From a virus, in the IMG/VR virus record IMGVR_UViG_3300020207_000042, positions 1-49,170 of that record: 49,170 nucleotides of DNA; one strand, 5' to 3'. The notes below the pieces were generated by a model. It was not told the DNA's origin. It saw nothing but the letters and a program-made list of their open reading frames with translations, and ran no database searches. The position numbers were made by a program, and so were the translations under genes. How positions within the stretch are numbered: the stretch's first letter is position 1; every line of letters starts with the position of its first letter. This document shows, one piece after another, positions 5,876 to 45,494 of this stretch.

Positions 5876-5897
5876 GTCCACCCTTTTTCTCTAAAAC

Positions 5898-5905
5898 GAT
5901 AAATA
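5898..5905 (+). promoter_or_regulatory. T4-type late promoter (GATAAATA) before leader RNA
   Basis: CGATAAATACTATT is shared base for base with the promoter before the gp13-like gene (48270-48283). T4 spacing puts +1 at about 5911, two bases before the first stem of the structured leader described at 5911-6016. This is the only late promoter seen here with a long (about 105-nt) leader. Confidence 0.65.
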
Positions 5906-5910
5906 CTATT

Positions 5911-6016
5911 AATGCAGCATAGACCAATGTTGCAGGGTCAAACTGTGGTTAGCCAGCAAAGAGCGAGAGCTGAAAATTTAGGCTAGAGGGACAGGATCCC
6001 CGTGTAAGGAGAAGAG
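5911..6016 (+). ncRNA. Structured 5' leader RNA with pseudoknot upstream of the second giant gene
   Basis: The non-coding gap folds by eye into a compact structure. An 8-bp hairpin pairs 5913-5920 with 5927-5934 (one G-U). Its 6-nt loop carries GACC (5922-5925), complementary to GGTC at 5936-5939, giving an H-type pseudoknot. A second stem pairs 5949-5954 with 5981-5986 and encloses a small AGC/GCT hairpin with a GAGA tetraloop (5962-5971). CTGT 5943-5946 can pair with ACAG 5991-5994, in competition with a GGG/CCC pairing (5988-5990 with 5998-6000). The Shine-Dalgarno sequence AAGGAG (6007-6012) follows directly. Marine phage leaders of the manA and wcaG RNA classes occur in such places, but I cannot confirm membership from memory. 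It could be a cis-regulatory element or a 5' stability element. Confidence 0.55.
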
Positions 6017-27701: not shown

Positions 27702-29660
27702 ATGGCTATACTTAAAAGTACAATAATAAACGACATAGGTTACTTGAGCTTGCCTGTCGGATCAGAAGCACAAAGATTAGCAACTGTTGCTGGTACATTA
27801 GTATACTTTACAAGTGTAGGAAACACAAGTTGGACTGTACCGAGCGGTGTTGACAGTGTCGAAGTACTAGTTGTTGGCGGAGGCGGCGGAGGCGGCTCTG
27901 ATATGGGCGGCGGCGGTGGAGCCGGCGGCGTAGTTTATGACGGGAATTATCCTACAGTACCTGGACAAAGTATTTCAATTACAATTGGAGGCGGTGGCGC
28001 AGGAGCATCAGCAGGTGTTGGTCAAGCAAGAGGTAGCAACGGCGGAAACTCAGTATTTGGTAGTATTACAGCATATGGTGGAGGCGGAGGCGCAAGTTGT
28101 CACGATAGATCAACTTCACCAGCAGGAGACGGCGCATCAGGTGGAGGCGCATCAGGTGGTGCTGTTCCTCCAAGCGGTGGTGCAAACGGAACAATTAATG
28201 ATAACGGACTAATTGGTAACGGCGGCTACGGAGGTGGCTCAAGAGGTAGATCAATTTATCCAGAACAAGGACATGACGGATCGTGGGGATCAGGTTATTG
28301 GTATCCAGGCGGCGGAGGCGGCGCTGGAGAACCTGGAACTTCTTATCCAAGACCACATGGTGGTAGAGGCGCAGAAATTACAATTACCGGCGAACCAATT
28401 TTTTGGGGCGGCGGTGGCGGTGGCTCTGGATACTCTAACACAGGCGGCGACGGCGGCCTAGGTGGTGGTGGCGGTGGAGCCGTTAACAGTACATATGGTG
28501 GTGTAGGTTACAACAACGGAGCCGACGGTGGCGGAGGTGGCACTAGTACATGGGCTAACACTCCAGGCGGCAATGCAGGCGCAAACACTGGCGGTGGCGG
28601 AGGCGGTGGCGCCCACTACAATTCAAATAACTACGGTGGTAATGGCGGATCAGGTATTGTTATTGTTAGATATAATACAACTAATCCTACCCAAGAAACA
28701 GCACAAGGTGCAATGAGAATCAATACTACCACAGGTGAAGCAGAATTTTACAGTTCAGATGCTACATGGCAAAGTTTATCTATTCCGTTTAAAGAAAGAA
28801 CACATATTACAACTAACTATATGTTAGGTGGTTATAAATCAAGTAGTGCATGGAATAATGTAAATAGATGTTCTATAGCAACAGACACTACTGTTAATTT
28901 AGGTGACAATTCATTAGAAAGAGCATTCAACTATCAGTCAGGTGCTTGTAGTAAAAACGTAGCATGGGTGTTTGGTGCAGGTAACGGTCACGCTGTACAA
29001 TCAAACTATGTTATAGGATTTAACATGCGTACTGACCAACAGTATACAGGTACATTTGATAGAAACCTAAGTGGTAATAAGTTACAAGACGGCACTATAT
29101 GGAAAGAACACTATATGGCGTGGGTATCAGGAAGTGCAGAACTTGACAGATACAACATGCTTACTGAAACACAATCAACTGTAGGCATCGGTGCACCAGG
29201 CGGATCAACAGTACAAGCATGGGGCATGAGTTGGGAAAATGAAGGAATGTTTACTAGAGATAACGATGGTACATTATTCCAATTCACTACAGAAACTTAC
29301 GGTGCATGGAGCGGTACATTCCCAAGTAATCATCACCAACAAAAGTCTATGAATAGTAAATTAAACTATTGTTGGGCAGGTAACGAAGGTGGCTATGCTA
29401 GTGGTGTAAACTTCCGAAGAACAAACTGGATTACTAGAACTACAGCAAATACATACGCTAAGCCTGTTACCGGCGGTGAAGAAAACTTTACAATGGGACA
29501 AGACCATGCTTACCAGTTAGGTTGCTTTAATGGTGCGCAAAATAATGATAGTTTCCGTTGGAACTATTATACCGAGTCTGGTTTTACAGGAGGAGTTTCT
29601 ATGCAGCCAAAAGGTAAAGCAGGATCTAGTTCAGGACTAGGCGCATGGAGAGATAATTAA
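27702..29660 (+). CDS. Glycine-rich adhesin-like fibre protein (652 aa)
   Basis: The N-terminus (MAILKSTIINDIGYLSLPVG) is the shared fibre module. At residue ~27 the module is broken by ~300 residues of glycine-rich sequence (VEVLVVGGGGGGGSDMGG, many GGGGG runs, ending GSGIVIVRYNT). The module then resumes (GAMRINTTTGEAEFYSSDATW). The rest (about residues 360-652) is homologous to the protein encoded directly downstream. Gly-rich domains opening with this EVLVVGGGGGG pattern are known from phage tail adhesins, where polyglycine helices present host-binding loops, so an adhesin role is likely. The stop overlaps the next start (TAATG). Confidence 0.75.
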   Translation: MAILKSTIINDIGYLSLPVGSEAQRLATVAGTLVYFTSVGNTSWTVPSGVDSVEVLVVGGGGGGGSDMGGGGGAGGVVYDGNYPTVPGQSISITIGGGGAGASAGVGQARGSNGGNSVFGSITAYGGGGGASCHDRSTSPAGDGASGGGASGGAVPPSGGANGTINDNGLIGNGGYGGGSRGRSIYPEQGHDGSWGSGYWYPGGGGGAGEPGTSYPRPHGGRGAEITITGEPIFWGGGGGGSGYSNTGGDGGLGGGGGGAVNSTYGGVGYNNGADGGGGGTSTWANTPGGNAGANTGGGGGGGAHYNSNNYGGNGGSGIVIVRYNTTNPTQETAQGAMRINTTTGEAEFYSSDATWQSLSIPFKERTHITTNYMLGGYKSSSAWNNVNRCSIATDTTVNLGDNSLERAFNYQSGACSKNVAWVFGAGNGHAVQSNYVIGFNMRTDQQYTGTFDRNLSGNKLQDGTIWKEHYMAWVSGSAELDRYNMLTETQSTVGIGAPGGSTVQAWGMSWENEGMFTRDNDGTLFQFTTETYGAWSGTFPSNHHQQKSMNSKLNYCWAGNEGGYASGVNFRRTNWITRTTANTYAKPVTGGEENFTMGQDHAYQLGCFNGAQNNDSFRWNYYTESGFTGGVSMQPKGKAGSSSGLGAWRDN

Positions 29661-30688
29661 TGGCTAATTTAAAAAACACTACAATTAGTGATACTGGTCA
29701 CTTAACATTACCTGGTGCAGGCGATGGAGTTCATGAATCGGGTGATATTAGGTATAACGGTAACTTTGGTAGGATAGAAGTTTTTCATGATAAAGATGGA
29801 GGCCAGTGGACTAACATGGCTATTCCTTTCCTAACAAGACAAATTATTACTACAGGATATGTTCATGGCGGGTATGCTAGTAGTGTGGTATGGGACGAAA
29901 CTAACAGAGTCACATTTGCTACAGATACAACTGTTGACTTAGCAGGTAAACAAGAAAGAGGACACAACTACAAAGACAGCATGCACAACAGTGACTTGTG
30001 TTGGACTGTAGGAGGAGCAGCTAATGCTCACTGTGCAGCAAGTAACGGTATTACTTGCTACAATCATAGAACAGAAAACAATATTACAAGCGGCTACACT
30101 AGAACTCATACATGGAGTGCTAATAACATTGGTATTATACAGCAAGGTTTAACAACAGCATGGATTACAGGCGGTGGTAGTAGTCAAATTAGACGTTTTA
30201 ACATGATTACTCAAACCCTTGGCTCACAATATGGAAACTCAAATACATCAGGCGGTATTTGGGGGATTCAACACGAAAATTACGGTATTTGGTGTACTAA
30301 TAACCAAGGCTTTAAATGGGCAACAGAAACACCATACGGACGTAGTGCTACATCACCACAAGGTGACAAACACCAGCATGCTCTTATGTTTAAGCATGCT
30401 AATATGGTTGCTGGACGTGAAGGTAATCCAAGTTCAAACTGGAGAGAAACAAACTTTTATAGCGATACTACACAGGACGTTATTGGAACAAAAGGTTATT
30501 ACGGTGGTGAAGAAAACATGGTTGTTGGACAAGATTGGGGCTATGCTATTGGCTGGTATCAAGGTTCACACGTTGTAAGTAGTGCTAAATTTACATACAC
30601 TACTAGACAAAGTATTACAGGCGGAGCAAGCCTTAATGCTAAAGGAGTTAATGGACAAAGTTCAGCAACGATGTCTTGGAGGGATTAA
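29660..30688 (+). CDS. Fibre-like protein paralogous to the C-terminal half of the glycine-rich adhesin
   Basis: This 342-residue protein is translationally coupled to the preceding gene by a one-base overlap. It opens with an uninterrupted copy of the shared module (MANLKNTTISDTGHLTLPG, SGDIRYNGNFGRIEVF, QWTNMAIPF). It then aligns with residues ~360-652 of the preceding protein: TTGYVHGGY versus TTNYMLGGY, FATDTTVDL versus IATDTTVNL, and GGEENMVVGQDWGYAIG versus GGEENFTMGQDHAYQLG. The repeated segments suggest a propeller or other beta-repeat fold. Function is inferred as a virion fibre tip or accessory protein. It ends AKGVNGQSSATMSWRD, like its neighbour. Confidence 0.7.
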   Translation: MANLKNTTISDTGHLTLPGAGDGVHESGDIRYNGNFGRIEVFHDKDGGQWTNMAIPFLTRQIITTGYVHGGYASSVVWDETNRVTFATDTTVDLAGKQERGHNYKDSMHNSDLCWTVGGAANAHCAASNGITCYNHRTENNITSGYTRTHTWSANNIGIIQQGLTTAWITGGGSSQIRRFNMITQTLGSQYGNSNTSGGIWGIQHENYGIWCTNNQGFKWATETPYGRSATSPQGDKHQHALMFKHANMVAGREGNPSSNWRETNFYSDTTQDVIGTKGYYGGEENMVVGQDWGYAIGWYQGSHVVSSAKFTYTTRQSITGGASLNAKGVNGQSSATMSWRD

Positions 30689-30727: not shown

Positions 30728-31597
30728 ATGACAAATGATGTACAAAATGTCGATCGTCGCAAGCAATATATGTCTGATCATAGATATGAGAGCACTGTTA
30801 ATACAGATGTTTCAATGCTTAACGAACGCGAAAAGGGTGCAATTAGTTATGCAATTAACAAAGAATGGACTAACCCTAAGTACAAATTAAGATGGTTTGT
30901 AGGTCAAGCTCAAATTACACCATACAGTAAATTAAGACAATATCTATTAGAAATTAAATCTAAGGAAGAATCAATTGAAAACATCGAATACGAAATTGCA
31001 AAGTATGATGTAGAAGTTAGACGTTTTAAACGTATGGCTGAAGAAGCTCATGATGAACTAGATAGAGAATTAGCCAGTGTTGAAGCGTGGAATGCAGAAC
31101 GTAATCATATTATGTCGAAGCGTAGATTGCAAGATTGGTATTTAGAAAGACAACACTTACTAGATCTTTTACAAGAGTTTTTAGATAGTGACGAAGCACA
31201 ACTACCAGATGGTAGTGGTCGTACTTATATGGATGTTTTAAATACAGACGAAGAAGATATTTACGAAGCAGAGTATTGGACTAATAGACTAGCTAAACAA
31301 GCAGCTACAGATATGATATTCTATGGACGCATTGGTACAGGTAACATGGATGCTATCCTTAGTGTTGGACCTGAACAACAAGCAGACATACTAGCACTAA
31401 CAATGAATTATAGTACACAATTACAAAATTACAATCTTCAACTACAACAAAAAGCAGAAGAAAATCTTAAATTACAATCAAAGTTTGATAATAAAGAACT
31501 ACTTGCCCCGCAAGATAAATACGATGTAATAGAAAATCCAAAACCACAAACTAATGGAGGCTCTGAGGAGACAATAAATGACATATATAATGTTTGA
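30728..31597 (+). CDS. Hypothetical coiled-coil protein (289 aa)
   Basis: ATG 30728 is preceded by AAGGAG. The protein is rich in Glu, Lys and Gln, with long helices. Residues about 75-150 (KSKEESIENIEYEIAKYDVE and onward to WYLERQHLLDLLQEFLDSDE) and about 220-255 (NYNLQLQQKAEENLKLQ) have heptad character. It has no signal peptide or Cys. The gene overlaps the next one by 20 bases. I do not recognise a named family. It could be a virion assembly or chaperone-like protein, given its place at the end of the structural block and its non-fibre composition. Confidence 0.7.
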   Translation: MTNDVQNVDRRKQYMSDHRYESTVNTDVSMLNEREKGAISYAINKEWTNPKYKLRWFVGQAQITPYSKLRQYLLEIKSKEESIENIEYEIAKYDVEVRRFKRMAEEAHDELDRELASVEAWNAERNHIMSKRRLQDWYLERQHLLDLLQEFLDSDEAQLPDGSGRTYMDVLNTDEEDIYEAEYWTNRLAKQAATDMIFYGRIGTGNMDAILSVGPEQQADILALTMNYSTQLQNYNLQLQQKAEENLKLQSKFDNKELLAPQDKYDVIENPKPQTNGGSEETINDIYNV

Positions 31598-32111
31598 AAC
31601 AGTGCCTGGTAACGACCCTAGGCTAGTACCAGAAATTGAAATTATAGGTAGTGACTGGCATTTTAGTTTTGCTAGAATAACTGGCACTCCTATTATTGAA
31701 TGGTTAAAACCTACTACGATCACAGAAGCAATGTTTCATGCAAGACATTTTACTAATGCATTAAACGGCGAAGTTGGTATTATGCGAAAAGTAGATAATC
31801 CTTCAGATATCATCCAACCAACAAGTGAAGGCGACAATGACTACGAGAAAGTTGCTTACAGACTAAATTCTATTGATGAGTCAAATGCTGTAGCACTTTT
31901 AAAGGCACAGATGTTAAATTGGGCAGAAAATCATTTTACAGACGAAACAGGCTTAATACAGATTAGAGCTCAAGTACCTGGTTTAAGAACATTAGAAGAA
32001 ACACAAATGTATATGGCTACCTATTTTGAATGGGAGTGTGCTTATACAGCAAATCAAGAGAAAACCCCACAGTTTACAACAACAAAATTTAGTCAACAAT
32101 TATACGATTAA
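31578..32111 (+). CDS. Hypothetical protein (177 aa)
   Basis: ATG 31578 is chosen because GAGGAG lies 9 bases upstream; an in-frame ATG at 31590 is possible but more distant. The gene overlaps the coiled-coil gene by 20 bases. The protein is soluble and mixed alpha/beta, with WHFSFARITGTPIIEWLKP near the start and MYMATYFEWECAYTANQEK near the end. There is no signal peptide or recognised motif. It is followed by an intrinsic terminator, so it closes the first structural operon. Function unknown. Confidence 0.65.
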   Translation: MTYIMFETVPGNDPRLVPEIEIIGSDWHFSFARITGTPIIEWLKPTTITEAMFHARHFTNALNGEVGIMRKVDNPSDIIQPTSEGDNDYEKVAYRLNSIDESNAVALLKAQMLNWAENHFTDETGLIQIRAQVPGLRTLEETQMYMATYFEWECAYTANQEKTPQFTTTKFSQQLYD

Positions 32112-32130
32112 TTCACTTTACTTTTTGTTA

Positions 32131-32170
32131 AAAAGGTGCTATAATAAGTAAAAGTATAGCACCTTTTTTT
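32131..32170 (+). terminator. Strong intrinsic terminator
   Basis: A perfect 13-bp stem pairs 32131-32143 (AAAAGGTGCTATA) with 32155-32167 around an 11-nt loop, with a T run at 32164-32170. It separates the structural operon from the enzyme cassette. The ascending arm also contains TGCTATAAT (32137-32145), an extended -10-like sequence. Confidence 0.85.
32137..32145 (+). promoter_or_regulatory. Candidate extended -10 host-type promoter inside the terminator stem
   Basis: TGCTATAAT is a perfect TG-N-TATAAT extended -10. No well-spaced -35 is visible; TTGTTA at 32125 is only 9 bases upstream. If used, transcription would begin near 32152, after most of the stem, so the hairpin would not form in the new RNA. 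It could give the enzyme cassette its own sigma-70 start. Confidence 0.3.
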
Positions 32171-32187
32171 ATGGAAGACAAATCTTA

Positions 32188-33897
32188 ATGAATCAAAAAG
32201 TTTTTAGTATACCTCTTAACCCAAAACTCTCTAACGAGCAATATATAGAGTTTATAAATTTTGTCGAACAATATAAAGACTATATTAAAGACATATATTT
32301 TACATGTAGAATCCCACCCTTTACACAAGATGCAATGGGAGATATATTTGTATTAGACGAAGATTATAACTTAGCAATAGATCAAGCACTGTTTGTACAA
32401 GAAAGAACAGGAGTTCCTATTAGTGCTACATTTAATAATATACAAATTCCACCAAGTCAAAAAAATCTTGATACTTTTATAAAGCATTTTAAACCTTTAT
32501 ATGACAAAGGTATACGTATTGCTACTATTCCGCATACACATTGGATGGCAACAGGACAAATTAAACGAGCATTTCCGGAACTTTATGTAAAAAATACTAT
32601 ATTAAGAGATGTAAGAGTTGCGGCAGAAATAGTTCATCTAGCAAAATATGGATTTGACTATATTAATCTTGACAGAGACTTAATGAGAGATCGAGATACT
32701 TTACAACGTCTTAAAGAAGCTAAAGATTGGATTAAAGAGAATTACGGAAAAGAAATACATTATAGTTTACTAGCAAATGAAGGATGTAAAGGTAACTGTC
32801 CTATGATGGTTGAACATTTTGAATACAATAATACTAGAGCAGGAAATGAGCCACAATATTTTAACAATGCTATTAGTAGAGTTAGTTGTCCAAAGTGGGA
32901 CGTAGATGATCCTAGTATTCATTTAAAAACAGCAAACATTCCTCCTTGGAGAGAAGATTGGGACGAATTTTTAAATGATTTTGGCATTGACGTTTTTAAA
33001 ATGCATGGTAGAGAAGCTGTTAGCAGACTTTACGAAACAATGGATATTGTAAAAAGATGGGCAAATAATGAAAAAATACTTTTTGATAACTTTGAAAATT
33101 ATCTAAGTAGTACAAATTTAAAAGATCGTCCAATTGATGCTTGGCGTAAAAAAATTAAAAATTGTAAATTTGATTGTTGGGAATGTCATTTTTGTGATGA
33201 TATTTACAAAGTTAAATCAAAAATTGAACATACAAATAAAGTAAAGCATGTTGCTGAAAGTATTCTTATAAGCGGTGTTCCAACAGTTAATACACAAATA
33301 CCAGGATTAACTAGTAGTAGAGTACAAACAGTTCTTAATCATATTGCAAGTGGTAGTACACACTATATGGAAGTAGGTGTAGCACAAGGTGCAACATTCT
33401 GTGGTGCAATCAAAGACAATAAGTTAGATGCTGTAGCAATTGACGACTGGCAAAGTGATATACAGCCTGCTGATCCAAATGCACCAAGATTACCACATAA
33501 CGAAAAAGAAAACTTTTTAAAGAATCTAGACAAGTATAAACAAGAAAACAACGTAGATGTAATTGATAAAGATTTATTTGAAGCAGATGTATCAAAATAT
33601 AATGGTAAAATAGACATGTGGTTTTATGACGGACCTCATGATGCAACAAGTACAGAACAAGCTGTTATACATTATAAAGATACATTTGCAGACGAAGCTG
33701 TTTTAATATTTGATGATGCTAATTGGCAAGGAGTTGTTGAAGGCGCAAGAAACGGAATTAATAAAACAGGGTTTGAAGTTGCATATGAAAAAATGCTGTT
33801 ATGTGATGTAGAAGATTTAGAAAGTTGGTGGAACGGATTATACATACTTGTAATATCTAAGCCAGAAGAAAATATAATTTCGATAGAGGAAATTTAA
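32188..33897 (+). CDS. U32-like Fe-S protein fused to a class I methyltransferase domain
   Basis: This 569-residue protein has two parts. Residues 1-345 look like a TIM-barrel protein of the peptidase-U32-like type, whose members (UbiU/V, RlhA and TrhP families) are Fe-S proteins acting in hydroxylation rather than proteolysis. Cys200 and Cys204 (NEGCKGNCPM), Cys234 and a cluster Cys326-x3-Cys330-x2-Cys333-x2-Cys336 are candidate cluster ligands. Residues about 375-560 resemble a SAM-dependent methyltransferase (Methyltransf_24 type), with glycine motif THYMEVGVAQGATFCGA, acidic AVAIDDWQ, then DMWFYDGPHD and EAVLIFDDANW. It is first in an accessory operon and overlaps the halogenase start (TAATG). 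Substrate unknown. The methyltransferase assignment is firmer than the U32 one. Confidence 0.6.
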   Translation: MNQKVFSIPLNPKLSNEQYIEFINFVEQYKDYIKDIYFTCRIPPFTQDAMGDIFVLDEDYNLAIDQALFVQERTGVPISATFNNIQIPPSQKNLDTFIKHFKPLYDKGIRIATIPHTHWMATGQIKRAFPELYVKNTILRDVRVAAEIVHLAKYGFDYINLDRDLMRDRDTLQRLKEAKDWIKENYGKEIHYSLLANEGCKGNCPMMVEHFEYNNTRAGNEPQYFNNAISRVSCPKWDVDDPSIHLKTANIPPWREDWDEFLNDFGIDVFKMHGREAVSRLYETMDIVKRWANNEKILFDNFENYLSSTNLKDRPIDAWRKKIKNCKFDCWECHFCDDIYKVKSKIEHTNKVKHVAESILISGVPTVNTQIPGLTSSRVQTVLNHIASGSTHYMEVGVAQGATFCGAIKDNKLDAVAIDDWQSDIQPADPNAPRLPHNEKENFLKNLDKYKQENNVDVIDKDLFEADVSKYNGKIDMWFYDGPHDATSTEQAVIHYKDTFADEAVLIFDDANWQGVVEGARNGINKTGFEVAYEKMLLCDVEDLESWWNGLYILVISKPEENIISIEEI

Positions 33898-35405
33898 TGT
33901 TAAAAAAAATAATAATTTTTGGTGGCGGCACTAGTGGTTGGTTAACAGCTGCATATCTTACTAATAATTTAATTCAACCTGTAGAAATACAATTAATTGA
34001 AGATGCATCTAAAGGTCCAATTGGTGTAGGAGAAGGCACTCAGCCATTAACAGCATCATTCTTATATAAGTGTGGTATAGATGCTAAAGATTGGATGAAG
34101 CCAAGTAATGCGGCATTTAAGTATGGCGTAGAACTTACTGGCTGGAATGACGAGCCATATTTTGTAGATAATGATGTAGTTGACAATGTACTTCCGGCAC
34201 CTCATTTGCCAGTCAGCAAATATTTTATAGACAAGCCCTATAGCGAATTTAAAAAGTGGCATCCTGCATACAGGTTAGCAAAAAACAATACAGCAACAAA
34301 AATAGATGATGCAACTGATATTAATTTTAATGTAGGATTAGACAGTTACGGTGCTGTGCATTTTAGTGCATTTGATATAATTGATACAATTAAAAAATTA
34401 ATTTTAGATAGAATAGATTATGTAGATACTAAAATAACACAAGTAGGTAGCGATGTAACTGGTATTACAAAATTAATTGACGACAAAGGTGTAAATTATA
34501 AAGCAGATCTATATATAGATTGCACAGGATTTCAATCTATCCTACTTGGTAAAACACTAAAAGAACCATTTATAAGTTATAACGATTGGTTAATAAATGA
34601 TAGTGCTGTTGCAATGCCAACGCAATATACTAATCCAGAAGAAGAATGTTTTCCTTATACAAAAGCAACAACAATGAAAGCAGGCTGGCGTTGGACAATT
34701 CCAACTTACCATAGAATAGGTAACGGATATGTATATAGTTCAAAACATATAACACCAGAAGAAGCAGAAGCAGAACTTAGAGAAGCAATAGGCGAATACG
34801 AAGCGCCAGCAAACCATTTAAAAATGCGTATCGGCTCTCATGAAAACATTGCTGTTAAAAATGTTTTAGGTGTAGGACTAAGTGCAGGATTTGTTGAACC
34901 TTTAGAAGCAACAGGTATTACATTTACTACAGCATTAGTAACATCACTTGCTGATTTGTTAAATCGTACAGGTAATGTTTGGGACGAACAACCTATGGCA
35001 ATGATTAATAGAGGTTTTTATGAAATGAGTATAGAAATACTCACATTCATTTATGCACACTATTATTTTAGTAGTAGGAATGATACTCCTTACTGGCAGG
35101 AAATTAGATCAAAAACACTAGACGAATTACCAGCAGATGGCAGAATGATGATGAGTCAATACTATCCTAATTTAGGTGATTTTATATTCTTTACACCCGG
35201 AAGTATGTTTAGTAGTATACAATGGTGGAGTATGCTACATGCTGGCGGAGCATACCCTAATGCAAAATCTGATCTTACAGATAAACAAAAACAGTATATA
35301 GAACATTTTATGAAAGTACAAGATGTAAGAGTAGAAAGTGCTAAAGAATTATTTGGTAATCATTACAAATTTTTAGATAAGTGGTATAGTGAATGGAAAG
35401 AGTAG
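33897..35405 (+). CDS. Flavin-dependent (tryptophan-type) halogenase
   Basis: FADH2-dependent halogenases make hypohalous acid and pass it through a tunnel to a catalytic lysine that halogenates an electron-rich substrate. All family hallmarks are visible: FAD-binding GGGTSGWLTAAY (residues 9-20), GVGEGTQP (43-50), the lysine in NAAFKYGVEL (Lys75, equivalent to PrnA Lys79), the monooxygenase-discriminating WRWTIP (264-269), DCTGF (208-212) and GFVEPLEATGI with Glu337 (PrnA Glu346). Length 502 aa is normal. A cyanophage homologue, VirX1 of Syn10, has been characterised as a halogenase with a preference for iodide. A flavin reductase is not seen nearby and may come from the host. The ATG overlaps the previous stop by one base, with GAGGA upstream. 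Confidence 0.9.
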   Translation: MLKKIIIFGGGTSGWLTAAYLTNNLIQPVEIQLIEDASKGPIGVGEGTQPLTASFLYKCGIDAKDWMKPSNAAFKYGVELTGWNDEPYFVDNDVVDNVLPAPHLPVSKYFIDKPYSEFKKWHPAYRLAKNNTATKIDDATDINFNVGLDSYGAVHFSAFDIIDTIKKLILDRIDYVDTKITQVGSDVTGITKLIDDKGVNYKADLYIDCTGFQSILLGKTLKEPFISYNDWLINDSAVAMPTQYTNPEEECFPYTKATTMKAGWRWTIPTYHRIGNGYVYSSKHITPEEAEAELREAIGEYEAPANHLKMRIGSHENIAVKNVLGVGLSAGFVEPLEATGITFTTALVTSLADLLNRTGNVWDEQPMAMINRGFYEMSIEILTFIYAHYYFSSRNDTPYWQEIRSKTLDELPADGRMMMSQYYPNLGDFIFFTPGSMFSSIQWWSMLHAGGAYPNAKSDLTDKQKQYIEHFMKVQDVRVESAKELFGNHYKFLDKWYSEWKE

Positions 35406-35968
35406 GTTTATTTAAATCAGATTTTTTTGTAACTAAAATAGGCAATGAATCTGAACTAATAGACTTAAAAGAGCAGATGCATCAAGCACATGTTGATGAT
35501 GTTGAATCTATTAACATGAGTAATGCAGGTTGCTGGAGAAGTACCGTACAATATTCAAATATTAACTGGCTATTAGACGGCGTAAAAACCGCAACTGAAC
35601 AAGCAATTAATTATTATACAGGATTTGATAGTACATTTAAAAAACATATCAAGGAAAAACATATTAGTTTAGATTACTGGTCTAATATAAATGAACCTGG
35701 TAGTAGAAATGTATTGCATAATCATGTTGCTGATAGTTTTGCGGCTGTGTACTATGTACAAGGAAAAGATACAGGAGCATTAAAGTTTATAAATCCAGGA
35801 AATGTTTTAAACGATTGTAATCCAATTTCTCCTTATACAAGAGAAGTTTTAGTTTATCCTACAGATGGAGAACTAATACTATGGCCTGCTTGGGTGCCAC
35901 ACGAAGTTGAAACTAATACTAGTAATAGGCAGAGAATGAATATTGCATTTACAATACAGGTTAGATAA
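35393..35968 (+). CDS. 2-oxoglutarate/Fe(II) oxygenase-like protein (TIGR02466-like)
   Basis: This 191-residue protein has the pattern of the putative 2OG-Fe(II) oxygenase family common in marine phages. It shows YWSNINEPGSRNVLHNHVAD with candidate iron-site residues His109/His111, then AVYYVQGKDTGALKFINPG, then GELILWPAWVPHEVETN with the distal His170, and RQRMNIAFTIQ with Arg181 as probable 2OG-binding residue. The jelly-roll strand order fits. The gene overlaps the halogenase by 13 bases and the next gene by one, so it is co-translated with them. It probably hydroxylates the same unknown substrate or a related one. Which residues bind iron is inference. Confidence 0.75.
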   Translation: MERVGLFKSDFFVTKIGNESELIDLKEQMHQAHVDDVESINMSNAGCWRSTVQYSNINWLLDGVKTATEQAINYYTGFDSTFKKHIKEKHISLDYWSNINEPGSRNVLHNHVADSFAAVYYVQGKDTGALKFINPGNVLNDCNPISPYTREVLVYPTDGELILWPAWVPHEVETNTSNRQRMNIAFTIQVR

Positions 35969-36711
35969 TGTTTAAGAAGAAAGATAAGATAGAATTTTTT
36001 AGTAAAATAGACGGAGTTGCTGAAGCATATCCTATTATACCTGCTAAAGATTTTCGTCCTAAGTGGATGTCACGGTGTAAACAAAATTACATTGACAACA
36101 AGGATAGAAACTTGCCTAGCCATCTATATCAATGCCCTGGAATTTTTGATCTTTACAATTATGGATTTATTTTGCCTTTATGGCACGATGTTATAATTAA
36201 GACACAAGCAGGACAACAAGGATTTCAATATGTAAATCCTAGTCAAACACTTAGTAAACTACTAGAAGGCGACCCTGTAACAAGTCAACCACCTGAAATA
36301 TCTAAATGGTTGCCAAAACGCCCTCATAGTATTGAAGCTATTGTAAAATTTAATACGCCTTGGAATGTTATTGCACCTAAGGGTGTAAAATTTTTAATAA
36401 CACCTATTGCATATAGTGATAGTTATGAGTTTGAATCTAGTATAGGTGTGTTAGATCCTGCTATAAACACAGAATTAAATATACAAGGTTACTGGAATAT
36501 ACCAAACGGAGAACGCAAATTAACAGCAGGTACTCCTATTGCTCATATTATTCCATTAACTGAAAAAAGATATGACTATATAATTAGAGAAATGAATGAG
36601 AATGATTTTAGATTTTTTAGAAAAAGACTATTCTGGGGAACACATTCTTTTAAACATAATAAATCATTAATTAAAGAAATGTATAGAAAGCATTTTCAAG
36701 GAGAAAAATAA
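35968..36711 (+). CDS. DUF6065-like protein, copy 1 (247 aa)
   Basis: This is a soluble mixed alpha/beta protein beginning MFKKKDKIEFFSK. Conserved blocks shared with the protein at 37120 are YPIIPAKDFRPKW, CPGIFDLYNYGFILPLWHD, IVKFNTPWNVIAPKGVKF, IQGYWNIP and LTAGTPIAHIIPL. I associate this pattern with DUF6065, a family of unknown function, but only from memory. It is coupled to both neighbours by one-base overlaps. Position between an oxygenase and a small protein suggests it takes part in the same modification, for example in binding substrate or product; that is inference. Confidence 0.65.
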   Translation: MFKKKDKIEFFSKIDGVAEAYPIIPAKDFRPKWMSRCKQNYIDNKDRNLPSHLYQCPGIFDLYNYGFILPLWHDVIIKTQAGQQGFQYVNPSQTLSKLLEGDPVTSQPPEISKWLPKRPHSIEAIVKFNTPWNVIAPKGVKFLITPIAYSDSYEFESSIGVLDPAINTELNIQGYWNIPNGERKLTAGTPIAHIIPLTEKRYDYIIREMNENDFRFFRKRLFWGTHSFKHNKSLIKEMYRKHFQGEK

Positions 36712-37127
36712 TGCCGTTGCAAGAATCAAATACAGAAGAATTTGTAACATATACTCAAACACTAAGAGTTGCTAAAGATCAATATACAGCTCGCAAAGTT
36801 CAAAAAGATAGAATAAAGCATGTAGGATGGTTTAACATAGTTCTATCTGCAAAAGATATGGTGTTATTATATAAAGATGGTGCTAACGGTATTCAGCAAG
36901 TTATAGCATCTAAAAATTGTGCTGGCGCCGAACCGTTACCAGAAGTGCCTACTACCGTTGAAAACGTTTTAGGAGAAGATGTTGAAGAAATTCATCACGT
37001 TACTTTTTATACCAAACCAGATGGTAATATTAAATTAATTCATGTTGATGATATTGTCTCTTGGACTGTTACAAATTCACTACTTAATCAATTAGATAAG
37101 AAGTATAAGGAGAACATTCGTGTTTAG
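36711..37127 (+). CDS. Hypothetical protein of the halogenase cassette (138 aa)
   Basis: The start overlaps the preceding stop by one base (TAATG), preceded by AAGGAG (36698-36703). The protein is small and soluble, with YTQTLRVAKDQYTARKVQKD near the N-terminus, a beta-rich middle (GWFNIVLSAKDMVLLYKDG), EEIHHVTFYTKPDGNIKLIH and a helical C-terminus. It has one Cys (Cys69). I recognise no family. It sits between the two DUF6065-like copies and overlaps the second by 8 bases, so co-expression is certain if the operon is transcribed. Confidence 0.65.
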   Translation: MPLQESNTEEFVTYTQTLRVAKDQYTARKVQKDRIKHVGWFNIVLSAKDMVLLYKDGANGIQQVIASKNCAGAEPLPEVPTTVENVLGEDVEEIHHVTFYTKPDGNIKLIHVDDIVSWTVTNSLLNQLDKKYKENIRV

Positions 37128-37884
37128 TTTTTTTAAGAAAAAACCAAAAGTAGAATTTGTTGCTCTATTACCAGAAGTAAATCAAATTATGCCTATTATT
37201 CCTGCTAGTAAAATGAAGTTTGATTGGATCAAGCCTGCTATGGAAGATTGGAAAAAACTTAAAGAAAAACATGAACAACTACCTACAAAACTAACACACA
37301 TTGCTAGGTGCCCTGGCATACACAAAATTATGCGTGAAGGTTGGATTTTACGCAGCTGGTGTGACTTTACAATAAAAACAGATGGTGATGGTAAATCTTT
37401 TCAATGGGCAACACCAGTATCTCAGCAAACTGTAGATGCAGATCATATTTGGAAATGGGATTATTTGTCACATCATGCAGAGTCAATATTTGGACAAGTA
37501 GATAAAAGAAATACACTAGATACTGTTATTAAGGTACAATCACCTTGGATAGTTTATATTCCTAAAGGTTATTATTTAATGAGTATGCCTATTCCCTATC
37601 CAGATAATCATAGTTTTACAGCTGCTACTGGACTGATCGACGGGGACGAAGGACCAAACTTTTTAAATGTTCAGCTATACTGGCACGAACTAAATAATGT
37701 TACTAAGATACCTGCGGGTACTCCTCTTGCTCAATATATGCTTGTAAAGAAAGACAAGATTGATGCAGAAATAAGAGATGTAACTGATAAAGATATTAAA
37801 AACTTAAGGCTACGATCTACTATATTAGATAATAGATTTATTGTAGACTACAAACCATTAAAGGAAGTAAAATGGCATGAGTAG
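37120..37884 (+). CDS. DUF6065-like protein, copy 2 (254 aa), GTG start
   Basis: This is a paralogue of the protein at 35968 by shared order of blocks: MPIIPASKMKFDW, ARCPGIHKIMREGWILRSWC, FTIKTDGDGKSFQWATP, VIKVQSPWIVYIPKGYY, LNVQLYWHELN and IPAGTPLAQYMLV. It starts with GTG at 37120, with AAGGAG (37107-37112) 7 bases upstream; no ATG is better placed, and GTG gives MFSFFKKK, matching MFKKK of copy 1. It overlaps both neighbours by 8 bases. Identity to copy 1 is low, so the duplication is old. Function unknown. Confidence 0.65.
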   Translation: MFSFFKKKPKVEFVALLPEVNQIMPIIPASKMKFDWIKPAMEDWKKLKEKHEQLPTKLTHIARCPGIHKIMREGWILRSWCDFTIKTDGDGKSFQWATPVSQQTVDADHIWKWDYLSHHAESIFGQVDKRNTLDTVIKVQSPWIVYIPKGYYLMSMPIPYPDNHSFTAATGLIDGDEGPNFLNVQLYWHELNNVTKIPAGTPLAQYMLVKKDKIDAEIRDVTDKDIKNLRLRSTILDNRFIVDYKPLKEVKWHE

Positions 37885-38101
37885 TTTTCACAAGGTTGAA
37901 ATAAGTTTGTACGCAAACAAAGACACTAAATTTATGAATGATGCGCATGCACATTGGTTAAATTACTCTGTGCAACATAGACGTATGGCCGGCTTTAGAA
38001 TAAAAATAAGCCATTGTAAACAGTTTGTTACAATGAATGACGAAGAAGCATTCAATTACTTTTTAGATACTTGGAAGCATTACAAGCGAGTCATATACTA
38101 A
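37877..38101 (+). CDS. Small hypothetical protein (74 aa)
   Basis: ATG 37877 lies 8 bases inside the previous gene, near GGAAG, and the gene ends 7 bases before a late-promoter motif. The protein is basic and aromatic-rich (HWLNYSVQHRRMAGFRIKIS), with five His and one Cys (Cys47) and no membrane segment. It is the last gene of the halogenase cassette by spacing. No family recognised. It could be an RNA- or protein-binding helper, but nothing in the sequence settles this. Confidence 0.6.
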   Translation: MSSFHKVEISLYANKDTKFMNDAHAHWLNYSVQHRRMAGFRIKISHCKQFVTMNDEEAFNYFLDTWKHYKRVIY

Positions 38102-38102
38102 A

Positions 38103-38124
38103 CTACAGATAAATACTACTGTAG
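38103..38124 (+). promoter_or_regulatory. T4-type late promoter (GATAAATA) within an inverted repeat
   Basis: GATAAATAC (38108-38116) is flanked by the inverted repeat CTACAG (38103-38108) and CTGTAG (38119-38124). Predicted +1 is near 38121. AGGA at 38127-38130 and ATG 38138 follow. This element opens the second structural block after the halogenase cassette. Confidence 0.6.
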
Positions 38125-44701: not shown

Positions 44702-45061
44702 TCACCCTACGTTTTTACCAGGAAGCACTATAAACTTATCTTTTTCAAACTCACCATTGCTTGATTCTGTAATCGACGAATCGTCTTTTATAGATTCAAG
44801 ACAACACGGCATTAGGGGAGGAACATGATGAATTTGCCCTTCGCCTATAACTGTTTCAAAAAGTTTTCCTGTATCAGTATCAATCCAACGCAATTTAAAA
44901 TTGCCTGTATTTACAAACCAAGTTTTTTCTTTTTTTACGTTAAAGAAAAAGTCTGTAATACTTCCTACTTTTTCAAATGCTAATATTTTTGTACAATAAT
45001 CATTTGTTCTTGCTATTGTAAGTTCATGTCCCCATGATTGTTTTGATACGTCACTACTCAT
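44702..45061 (-). CDS. Cupin-like protein lacking usual metal histidines (119 aa)
   Basis: The strand pattern WGHELTIARTNDYCTKILAF, then DFFFNVKKEKTWFVNTGNFK, then GEGQIHHVPPLMPCCLESI resembles a single-domain cupin of the phosphomannose-isomerase type (ManA-like), which phages often encode. At the places where metal-binding His residues are expected (before KKEKTW and after PPLMP) I see Phe/Asn and Cys instead. It may therefore be non-catalytic, a sugar-binding or structural cupin, or I may have the register wrong. It overlaps the upstream Nudix gene by 8 bases. Confidence 0.55.
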   Translation of the reverse strand: MSSDVSKQSWGHELTIARTNDYCTKILAFEKVGSITDFFFNVKKEKTWFVNTGNFKLRWIDTDTGKLFETVIGEGQIHHVPPLMPCCLESIKDDSSITESSNGEFEKDKFIVLPGKNVG

Positions 45062-45494
45062 TGTCTTCCATTACCTTTAGTACTTCTGTTATTGTTGATA
45101 ATTTTCCTTGTATTGTTTTGTTCTGTAGTGTATTTCTTAACCCGTGGTGTAGTGGCTTAGGCCATTGTCCAATTGATACCCAAGCATATCCATCATGCTC
45201 TTTATTTAATTGGGGGATGAATTCTTCATTTATAACTATTAGATAGGTATGAAATGAAAACCTATTATCGTTACTTACAAAACTTTCTAAAGGAATTACT
45301 TTCTTGAAATCTACATTACCAATTTCTTCGTAAATTTCTCTTTTTAATCCTTCCCAAGGAGTCTCTTTATTTTCATTTGTTCCGCCAACTAATCCCCAAG
45401 AGATATTAGACTTAGGACCAGTCCTATGTAGGAATAAAAATCTTTTTGTATTTAGGGAGTAGAATAATGCTCCACTACAAACAATATCGCTCAT
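45054..45494 (-). CDS. Nudix hydrolase (146 aa)
   Basis: The full Nudix box G-x5-E-x7-RE-I-x-EE-x-G is present (GTNENKETPWEGLKREIYEE, followed by IG). Nudix enzymes hydrolyse nucleoside diphosphates linked to another group, using Mg2+ held by the box glutamates. The N-terminus VCSGALFYSLNTKRFLFLHR and WGLVGGTNE just before the box are typical of the fold; HDGYAWVSIGQWP matches the usual downstream specificity segment. It lies 8 bases after the gp15-like gene in a minus-strand operon and overlaps the cupin-like gene. T4 itself encodes a Nudix enzyme (NudE), but elsewhere in its genome. Substrate cannot be predicted. Confidence 0.9.
   Translation of the reverse strand: MSDIVCSGALFYSLNTKRFLFLHRTGPKSNISWGLVGGTNENKETPWEGLKREIYEEIGNVDFKKVIPLESFVSNDNRFSFHTYLIVINEEFIPQLNKEHDGYAWVSIGQWPKPLHHGLRNTLQNKTIQGKLSTITEVLKVMEDNE

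Follow-up and report, generated by a model that had tools for sequence, protein, structure and literature searches.

What does a T4-like phage do with a halogenase encoded directly behind its tail genes, and do the genes around it act together with it? This question is raised by IMG/VR virus record IMGVR_UViG_3300020207_000042, a 49,170-base stretch of DNA (hereafter, the window) that represents the tail/baseplate region of a T4-like phage, with matches to baseplate wedge, tail fibre, tail sheath and head-tail adaptor families. An earlier note on this sequence had singled out seven plus-strand genes at 32188-38101 as an enzyme cassette (here termed, in order, G1, HAL, OX, TWIN A, G5, TWIN B and G7) and had proposed that they form one pathway acting on a single target. 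By comparison with related loci, we show that the cassette belongs to a conserved module of a group of uncultured T4-like phages, located behind tail genes, whose recognisable members are predicted tailoring enzymes and dUTPase-fold proteins and which, in halogenase-bearing lineages, often has a predicted sigma70-type promoter of its own. To the reading that the cassette is an autonomously expressed tailoring operon, performing halogenation, hydroxylation and methylation on one pre-made, probably protein substrate, with tail-fibre proteins as the leading candidate, we assign a probability of roughly 36%.

Conservation of the module behind the tail genes

Loci related to the cassette were collected by scanning IMG/VR, with the best 80 of 86 matches taken for TWIN, the best 80 of at least 569 for G1 and the best 80 of 150 for a halogenase profile (a first halogenase scan had given 10 loci); frequencies from these scans lean towards near relatives. 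Genes outside the window were labelled using profiles built from these sequences in two or three rounds, the least certain labels being those of G5 and G7 in distant loci and of the broad phrog_1417-type profile (352 matches to open reading frames, or ORFs). Because many loci share contigs, counts are given by lineage (80% identity).

Within the window, ORF coordinates reproduce the tight packing described earlier, with overlaps of 1, 13, 1, 1, 8 and 8 bases between the seven genes. Upstream lie the plus-strand tail-side genes U10 (29660-30688, 342 residues, phrog_1417), U9 (30728-31597, phrog_1409) and U8 (31578-32111), which are syntenic neighbours and candidate substrates outside the cassette. 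Across strongly diverged contigs, the order U9-U8-[OX OX]-G1-[OX]-HAL-OX-[OX]-TWIN-[G5] recurs, brackets marking genes that are variably present; 119 loci hold G1, U8 and U9 together with HAL, then OX, then TWIN, and 41 of these are left after removal of HALs that are at least 92% identical. The earlier note had named single homologues scattered through related phages as the pattern that would speak against a set, and this is not what we find: among 34 lineages from the halogenase scan, 33 have G1 within 5 kb, 32 have OX and 30 have TWIN. Corresponding numbers were 31 for G1, 33 for OX and 23 for HAL among 35 TWIN lineages, and 27 for HAL, 28 for OX and 26 for TWIN among 40 G1 lineages. In a comparison of the 35 G1 lineages that have 3 kb of sequence to either side, HAL, OX and TWIN were associated with one another (Fisher p = 6e-8 for HAL/OX, 4e-6 for HAL/TWIN and 4e-7 for OX/TWIN, a significance that shared descent inflates).

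The module is nevertheless divisible. In 12 of the 35 TWIN lineages a halogenase was not seen within 5 kb (11 of the 32 lineages that have 3 kb of sequence to either side), modules with G1, OX and TWIN but no HAL are common (L056-L059, L062, L065, L070, L072, L074, L078-L083 and others), and G1 occurs with none of HAL, OX and TWIN in L166, L171, L176 and L181-L200, some of these on short contigs. The number of oxygenases per locus ranges from none to five or more labels, and the position of G5 varies. G1 matches 123 cultured cyanophage records, 121 of them over at least 80% of its length; in three such G1 regions, OX profile matches occur at varying distance and matches to the HAL and TWIN profiles are absent. 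The expectation that all seven genes would co-occur in a kept order is thus borne out for the association of HAL, OX and TWIN and for the recurring order, and falls for the set as a whole, in which HAL is optional and G1 stands alone in several lineages. Likewise, co-occurrence of the enzymes agrees with a shared pathway, while the claim of one pathway for all seven was too strong, given the modules without HAL, the variable oxygenases and the HAL relatives found elsewhere. Other combinations were also observed: L010 (4502-13986) carries three halogenase-family genes, one of them on the opposite strand, and five 2-oxoglutarate (2OG)-type oxygenase labels in 9.5 kb, and in L097 (7995-16606) three consecutive TWIN genes precede an oxygenase, and the opposite strand carries two halogenases.

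The enzymes and the dUTPase-fold proteins

HAL (33897-35405; 502 residues) is a flavin-dependent halogenase of the Trp_halogenase superfamily, as had been proposed (Pfam Trp_halogenase, PF04820, E = 1.4e-90; 304.8 bits against a cut-off of 21 with the family profile). K75 and E337 stand at the catalytic Lys and Glu positions, as assigned by alignment, and both residues and the GGGTSG motif are invariant in 24 of 24 aligned HALs. The residue that follows the catalytic Glu is Ala in all 24, in contrast to Ser in the solved Trp enzymes compared; EPLEATG is found in 69 of 80 distinct HALs and EPLES in 9, and the 11 proteins lacking EPLEATG are mostly second halogenases of one locus. GTQP[LAF]T occupies the Trp1 slot in 67 of the 80, a looser Trp2-like pattern ([HYNA][PSG]F) occurs in 7, and HPFE, YYHG[FL] or a PrnA-type Trp4 pattern occurs in none.

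Free-tryptophan halogenases carry Trp1, Trp2 and Trp4 motifs, with Trp3 in addition and an HPFE-type Trp2 in group B, and enzymes without Trp4 include VirX1 and MibH (PMC8269204; this and all other papers are cited from excerpts of their text). Judged by its motifs, HAL falls outside the free-tryptophan groups A and B of PMC8269204. Because HAL lacks this pocket motif, we think that it most likely acts on a Trp or Tyr side chain of a protein. MibH, for its part, is a peptide halogenase.

The third gene, OX (35393-35968; 191 residues), is by its family profile a 2OG-Fe(II) oxygenase, in agreement with its first assignment (2OG-FeII_Oxy_5, PF13759, E = 2.1e-15; 57.4 bits, cut-off 27), with solved relatives 3bvc and 2rg4. 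Enzymes of this kind have an iron-binding HxD/E...H triad and a 2OG-binding Arg; in OX, H109, H111, H170 and R181 are invariant in 27 aligned proteins, and the 422 OX-labelled ORFs show an HxH..H pattern in 290 cases and HxD..H in 132.

G1 (32188-33897; 569 residues; phrog_1458) had been described as an iron-sulphur/methyltransferase fusion. The methyltransferase half of this description is supported by a match to Methyltransf_24 (E = 4.5e-10; 40.8 bits against a cut-off of 26.3), a family matched by 29 of 29 G1 members. In a structural model with a mean predicted local distance difference test (pLDDT) score of 85.8, residues 364-558 match O-methyltransferases (top Z 17.6, to 5x7f over 176 residues) and also the tRNA methyltransferase TrmR (Z 15.8, 168 residues), and there is a weak sequence match to YrrM (E = 0.028). 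The other part is a TIM barrel, for which the top Foldseek TIM-barrel match is MTHFR (2fmn, E = 8e-9). C200, C204, C234, C326, C330, C333 and C336 are conserved without exception across 29 aligned proteins, and among 108 distinct G1 proteins EGC-x3-C is present in 107 and C-x3-C-x2-C-x2-C in all. As modelled, G1 joins a TIM barrel, which holds the seven invariant cysteines, to a COMT-like O-methyltransferase, and these cysteines make it likely that the protein carries an iron-sulphur cluster, the half of the earlier description that is deduced from them. Its NEGC...C pattern is one that we take to be suggestive of Peptidase U32; a U32-type hydroxylase is at most a candidate reading of the N-terminus, PF01136 being missing among the families listed for the 29 G1 proteins, and no U32 gene was found in five genomes searched. 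Among 398 cellular genomes, four gave a total of five G1 matches, every one in the methyltransferase part.

The fourth and sixth genes, TWIN A (35968-36711; 247 residues) and TWIN B (37120-37884; 254 residues, GTG start), are related to each other, as had been noticed: they are 28-29% identical and both match phrog_7084 (1.9e-39 and 3e-46), which PHROG lists without a function. An AlphaFold2 model of TWIN A (pLDDT 93.7) gave dUTPases as its best Foldseek matches (E = 2.4e-4 to 6ky8), and all 50 matches listed by VIA-align were dUTPases (Z 8.1-9.3), the top one being 2y8c (Z 9.3, root-mean-square deviation 2.6, 120 aligned residues). At the sequence level, 5 of 56 TWIN members match the Pfam dUTPase family weakly (best 0.0009), and equally many match a pectate-lyase-like family. 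The modelled structure has a dUTPase fold; relative to the dUTPase/dCTP deaminase fold, TWIN has an extra N-terminal part bearing an invariant CPG. The catalytic motif III of dUTPases consists of an Asp and a Tyr. In TWIN, a motif-III-like column is Asp in 49 of 56 proteins and the Tyr at +3 is present in 7 of 56, and since the Tyr position is not kept, plain dUTPase activity is doubtful. The two other genes, G5 (36711-37127; 138 residues), often next to TWIN, and G7 (37877-38101; 74 residues), labelled in nearer relatives only, gave no PHROG match and no Pfam match above the cut-off, as did U8.

Relatives of TWIN were also found outside the module. In haloarchaeal virus HRTV-2 (L015, 4695-6765), a TWIN relative that scores 25.4 bits against Pfam DUF6065 (PF19541; cut-off 26.6) adjoins thymidylate synthase, a neighbour that hints at nucleotides; only 2 of 56 aligned TWINs match DUF6065 at E of at most 0.5 (best 0.0052). 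Cellular relatives were found at 13 loci, 12 of them titled as members of Sphingomonadales, which we take to be the order to which most of the 12 belong. A six-frame search recovered TWIN at all 13 and no HAL, OX, JMJ or G1 profile match in the flanks examined. Neighbours were uninformative among those scanned, except in L106 (4463-8689), from a Bacteroidetes metagenome-assembled genome, where the gene for a TWIN relative is split over two frames and has a B12/radical-SAM protein and a TauD-type dioxygenase in its vicinity.

These proteins could instead make a diffusible halogenated small molecule, antibiotic-like or signal-like, as has been proposed for phage PrnA and for a jumbo-cyanophage cluster (PMC7824862, PMC2984593). 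Residues 1-410 of HAL speak for this: their best Protein Data Bank sequence matches are the free-tryptophan 5-halogenases 8fov and PyrH (2wet; E = 1e-87 and 4e-86, profile A4), which have the catalytic Lys and Glu positions in common with HAL. The setting of the L106 relative points the same way. The alignment to 8fov/PyrH, however, ends near profile position 414-452, HAL lacks HPFE and YYHG, and the absence of Trp4 from all 80 distinct HALs led us to reject a free-tryptophan halogenase serving an antibiotic. Moreover, no scaffold-building enzyme, ligase, transporter or resistance family appears in the Pfam results for the seven proteins, a negative that is limited because four of the seven have no accepted family. 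Overall, we consider a small-molecule product doubtful.

A predicted promoter inside the left terminator

The strong intrinsic terminator reported to the left of G1 was recovered: the plus-strand spacer at 32112-32187 folds at -19.6 kcal/mol (z -3.7) into a hairpin with a 14-bp stem and an 11-nt loop, whose 3' arm continues into seven T. It was missing from a simple terminator scan because that scan allows loops of 3-8 nt only. The same spacer contains a predicted sigma70-type extended -10 promoter that the earlier note lacked, TTTACT-17-TGC-TATAAT at 32117-32145, with its -10 element within the left arm of the hairpin. A weaker promoter-like site lies on the minus strand at 32181-32153, as expected from the symmetry of the hairpin.

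In a scan of this single region, sites of this kind occurred at chance frequency (42 found, 41.9 expected), and the case for the promoter comes from its conservation. Among 40 distinct spacers between U8 and G1 or OX, all from HAL loci (at least 30 nt long, near-duplicates merged, 25 nt of U8 included), 22 score at least 11, compared to 0.34 expected from dinucleotide shuffles and a maximum of 4 in 200 shuffled sets. The late-type motif ATAAATA is absent from all 40 of these spacers, whereas a redundant control set of 149 other plus-strand spacers (25-199 nt, from loci up to L097) has it in 63 cases; the window's own spacer before G1 also has no late motif. A late-promoter reading, in which AAGTA would resemble AAATA, is less likely because TTGACA-17-TGCTATACT is found in the spacers of L040, L041, L044 and L045.

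The pattern TTKACA-N14-TGNTATAMT (at most one mismatch) has 23 sites in the relative contig G005, with none for a reversed control pattern. Sixteen of these sites lie within the first 10 kb, which has small ORFs where examined (L297), and the cassette's own spacer in this contig is unmatched. Elsewhere, the pattern has 15 sites in G004 (control 1), 4 in G003 (control 0) and 1 in G001 (control 0), the last being the cassette promoter itself in a contig whose 12 compared proteins are identical to those of the window. Taken together, these comparisons suggest a conserved sigma70-type extended -10 promoter for the cassette, apparently a single one for the whole set.

Since the -10 element lies in the left arm, a transcript begun in the loop would not contain that arm and would escape termination, and read-through from the tail operon, with the hairpin intact, would stop at the left spacer. 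We infer this insulation from the anatomy of the spacer; a promoter inside a terminator would be a neat way of running an early-type operon within a late region. In cyanomyoviruses, early sigma70-type promoters and late NATAAATA promoters have been described (PMC2984593). On the right, the late promoter seen earlier is a T4-like motif, GATAAATA, at 38108-38115 on the plus strand and belongs to the next virion operon. Half of the window's plus-strand [TGA]ATAAATA matches (5 of 10) sit in 591 intergenic bases (binomial p = 2e-8), and TATAAATA with at most one mismatch is not enriched across the whole window (122 found, 170 expected). Rfam gave zero matches in the window, including a 141-nt spacer at 5876-6016 in which a late promoter motif is followed by a long untranslated leader.

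An early-type promoter with a terminator set against the late operon would also be expected if the enzymes were made early to modify a host molecule, such as an envelope protein, a lipid or glycan, a tRNA or rRNA, or a pigment, so as to aid infection or block superinfection; under this reading, the target of the oxygenases and of the G1 methyltransferase would be a host molecule that is there at the outset. The similarity of the G1 methyltransferase domain to TrmR agrees with such a target, although many O-methyltransferases match with a Z similar to that of TrmR, and HAL is also found outside the tail region, directly before a DNA polymerase gene in L238. On the other hand, the position behind tail genes is fixed in most lineages. 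Spacers of at least 45 nt are found in 40 of 56 distinct cases in HAL loci and in none of 20 in HAL-less loci, and HAL-less modules, with no room for a promoter of their own, would be late genes. We regard a host target as somewhat unlikely.

Candidate substrates and known systems

If the cassette is a tailoring operon, the enzymes would be made early, independently of late genes, and would act in succession on a single substrate already present. HAL would use reduced flavin from the host to form hypohalous acid, which would pass to the catalytic lysine and halogenate an aromatic ring; OX would hydroxylate the substrate, G1 would methylate it, possibly at the hydroxyl made by OX, and TWIN would bind either the substrate or a ligand resembling a nucleotide. 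In all 78 distinct cases that have HAL, OX or TWIN, the gene immediately preceding U9 matches the phrog_1417-type profile, as it does in 4 of the 16 cases with G1 only; the two groups compared differ in descent, and the profile is broad. Tail fibres are therefore kept as the first candidate, and the upstream tail-fibre proteins of the phrog_1417 family are the leading, though unproven, substrate. In its most specific form, a post-translational pathway by which the phage would modify its own receptor-binding tail-fibre proteins by halogenation, hydroxylation and methylation, using enzymes stocked early through an insulated promoter inside a terminator, the proposal is unlikely; if true, it would give a virus with a halogenated virion protein.

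Several observations weigh against a tailoring operon directed at tail fibres. The same phrog_1417-type protein also precedes HAL-less modules, and Trp enrichment of the protein before U9, tried as a mark of the substrate, has no clear tie to HAL (mean Trp 2.6% with HAL, OX and TWIN, 2.3% with HAL and OX, 2.3% with OX and TWIN without HAL, and 2.0% with G1 only). The early promoter suits a host target no less than it does a late virion protein; of the 40 spacers, 18 score below 11, including that of G005 (score 9), a contig with many early-type promoters; and in Syn9 a late-type motif lies upstream of the halogenase group, so timing may differ between lineages. The likeness of HAL residues 1-410 to free-tryptophan enzymes belongs here as well, as does the lack, in 6 relative contigs that may all be incomplete, of a match to Flavin_Reduct (PF01613), a reductase that hosts could supply. 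At ten loci of the halogenase scan, HAL is followed by a protein of about 890-900 residues, and the surroundings carry no label for G1, OX or TWIN (L236-L238, L240, L241, L247-L249, L251 and L252, the protein being cut by the contig end in L249). In L238 (7001-12336), the HAL relative lies directly before a DNA_pol_B gene (Pfam, 1.1e-33), with an FAD/NAD oxidoreductase and a cupin downstream. Substrate, product and expression of the cassette are all predictions from sequence. As a separate observation, the L238 oxidoreductase could supply reduced flavin to its HAL neighbour; as a general flavin partner it was rejected, having matched its own contig only among 8 searched.

Patterns of divergence bear on the same point. 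Over the 41 loci, pairwise identities of HAL, G1, TWIN and U8 correlate (Spearman 0.60-0.71), OX distances correlate only weakly with those of other genes (0.33-0.47), and HAL divergence tracks the tail gene U8 (0.71) as closely as any cassette gene. Because HAL is tied to U8 as much as to its partners, descent together with the flanks explains the correlation, which does not show a unit moving as one, and the location behind tail genes may reflect hitch-hiking. Such patterns would also arise if the boundary of the tail region were a hotspot accumulating oxidative auxiliary genes with separate targets and no shared pathway, in keeping with an optional HAL, a variable number of oxygenases, extra halogenases and a shifting G5. 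The retained HAL-OX-TWIN order downstream of G1 in 41 loci, the 1-13-base gene overlaps in the window, the association of HAL, OX and TWIN and the apparent single promoter all argue otherwise, and we consider a hotspot improbable. Elsewhere in the window, a cysteine-dioxygenase-like gene (phrog_7851) and a Nudix-like gene (phrog_1198) lie on the minus strand at 44702-45494 between tail-fibre and tail-sheath genes, and small minus-strand genes like these recur downstream in relatives.

Halogenase/2OG clusters have already been published for cyanophages, and the cassette is a variant of these. A halogenase is present in 20 of 153 cyanophages (PMC10452541), and for the natural substrate of phage halogenases the excerpts of PMC10452541, PMC2984593, PMC9964418 and PMC7824862 offer proposals only, among them antibiotic protection, called speculative in PMC2984593 itself. 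Literature searches of full text, which also drew on PMC3037559, PMC8407142, PMC10436341 and PMC10611076, showed, among the results listed, no description of G1-HAL-OX-TWIN as a unit, consistent with the earlier note's statement that it knew of none. The nearest published system that we found is a different cyanophage cluster, the 10-gene cluster of jumbo cyanophage S-SSM6a, in which a halogenase, 2OG oxygenases and a methylase are predicted to cooperate, as in the cassette, and which was proposed to be a secondary-metabolite or capsule-decorating system (PMC7824862). The carbamoyltransferases, HemK-like methylase and HAD phosphatases described in the excerpt for that cluster have no counterpart in the Pfam matches of the cassette proteins. 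A TWIN match was obtained in 30 phage records, none of them S-SSM6a, in a collection that may not include this phage.

VirX1 of cyanophage Syn10 (Protein Data Bank 6qgm) is, like HAL, a phage flavin-dependent halogenase, with different Trp1 and Trp2 motifs (STLGHF and YPFGP, compared to GTQPLT and YFVDND in HAL; PMC8269204). In Syn10 a TWIN relative adjoins one of two halogenase places, either of which may hold VirX1. Syn9, S-RIM44, P-TIM40 and S-CREM1 share the TWIN partner with the cassette, having the order HAL(-HAL)-TWIN followed by oxygenases (several 2OG/JmjC). Their halogenases are 29-33% identical to HAL, and their regions carry no G1 label and as many as 9 OX or JmjC labels among the neighbours. 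Upstream of the halogenase region there is a structural-protein gene in S-RIM44 and a collagen-like-protein gene in S-CREM1. In Pelagibacter phage HTVC008M, HAL lies between a dioxygenase gene and a terminase gene. The 73-residue gene after TWIN in Syn9 and S-CREM1 was tried as G7 and rejected, with no BLAST match. New here are the dUTPase fold of TWIN, the domain make-up of G1, a HAL that keeps the catalytic Lys and Glu without Trp4, and the predicted conserved promoter inside a terminator. The module thereby narrows the question of the phage halogenase substrate, through fixed partners, a dUTPase-fold companion that also stands beside the halogenases of cultured cyanophages, the missing free-tryptophan Trp4 motif and a predicted early-type promoter of its own; and as cultured Syn9 and S-CREM1 carry HAL-TWIN-OX regions, that question is open to deletion and mass spectrometry.

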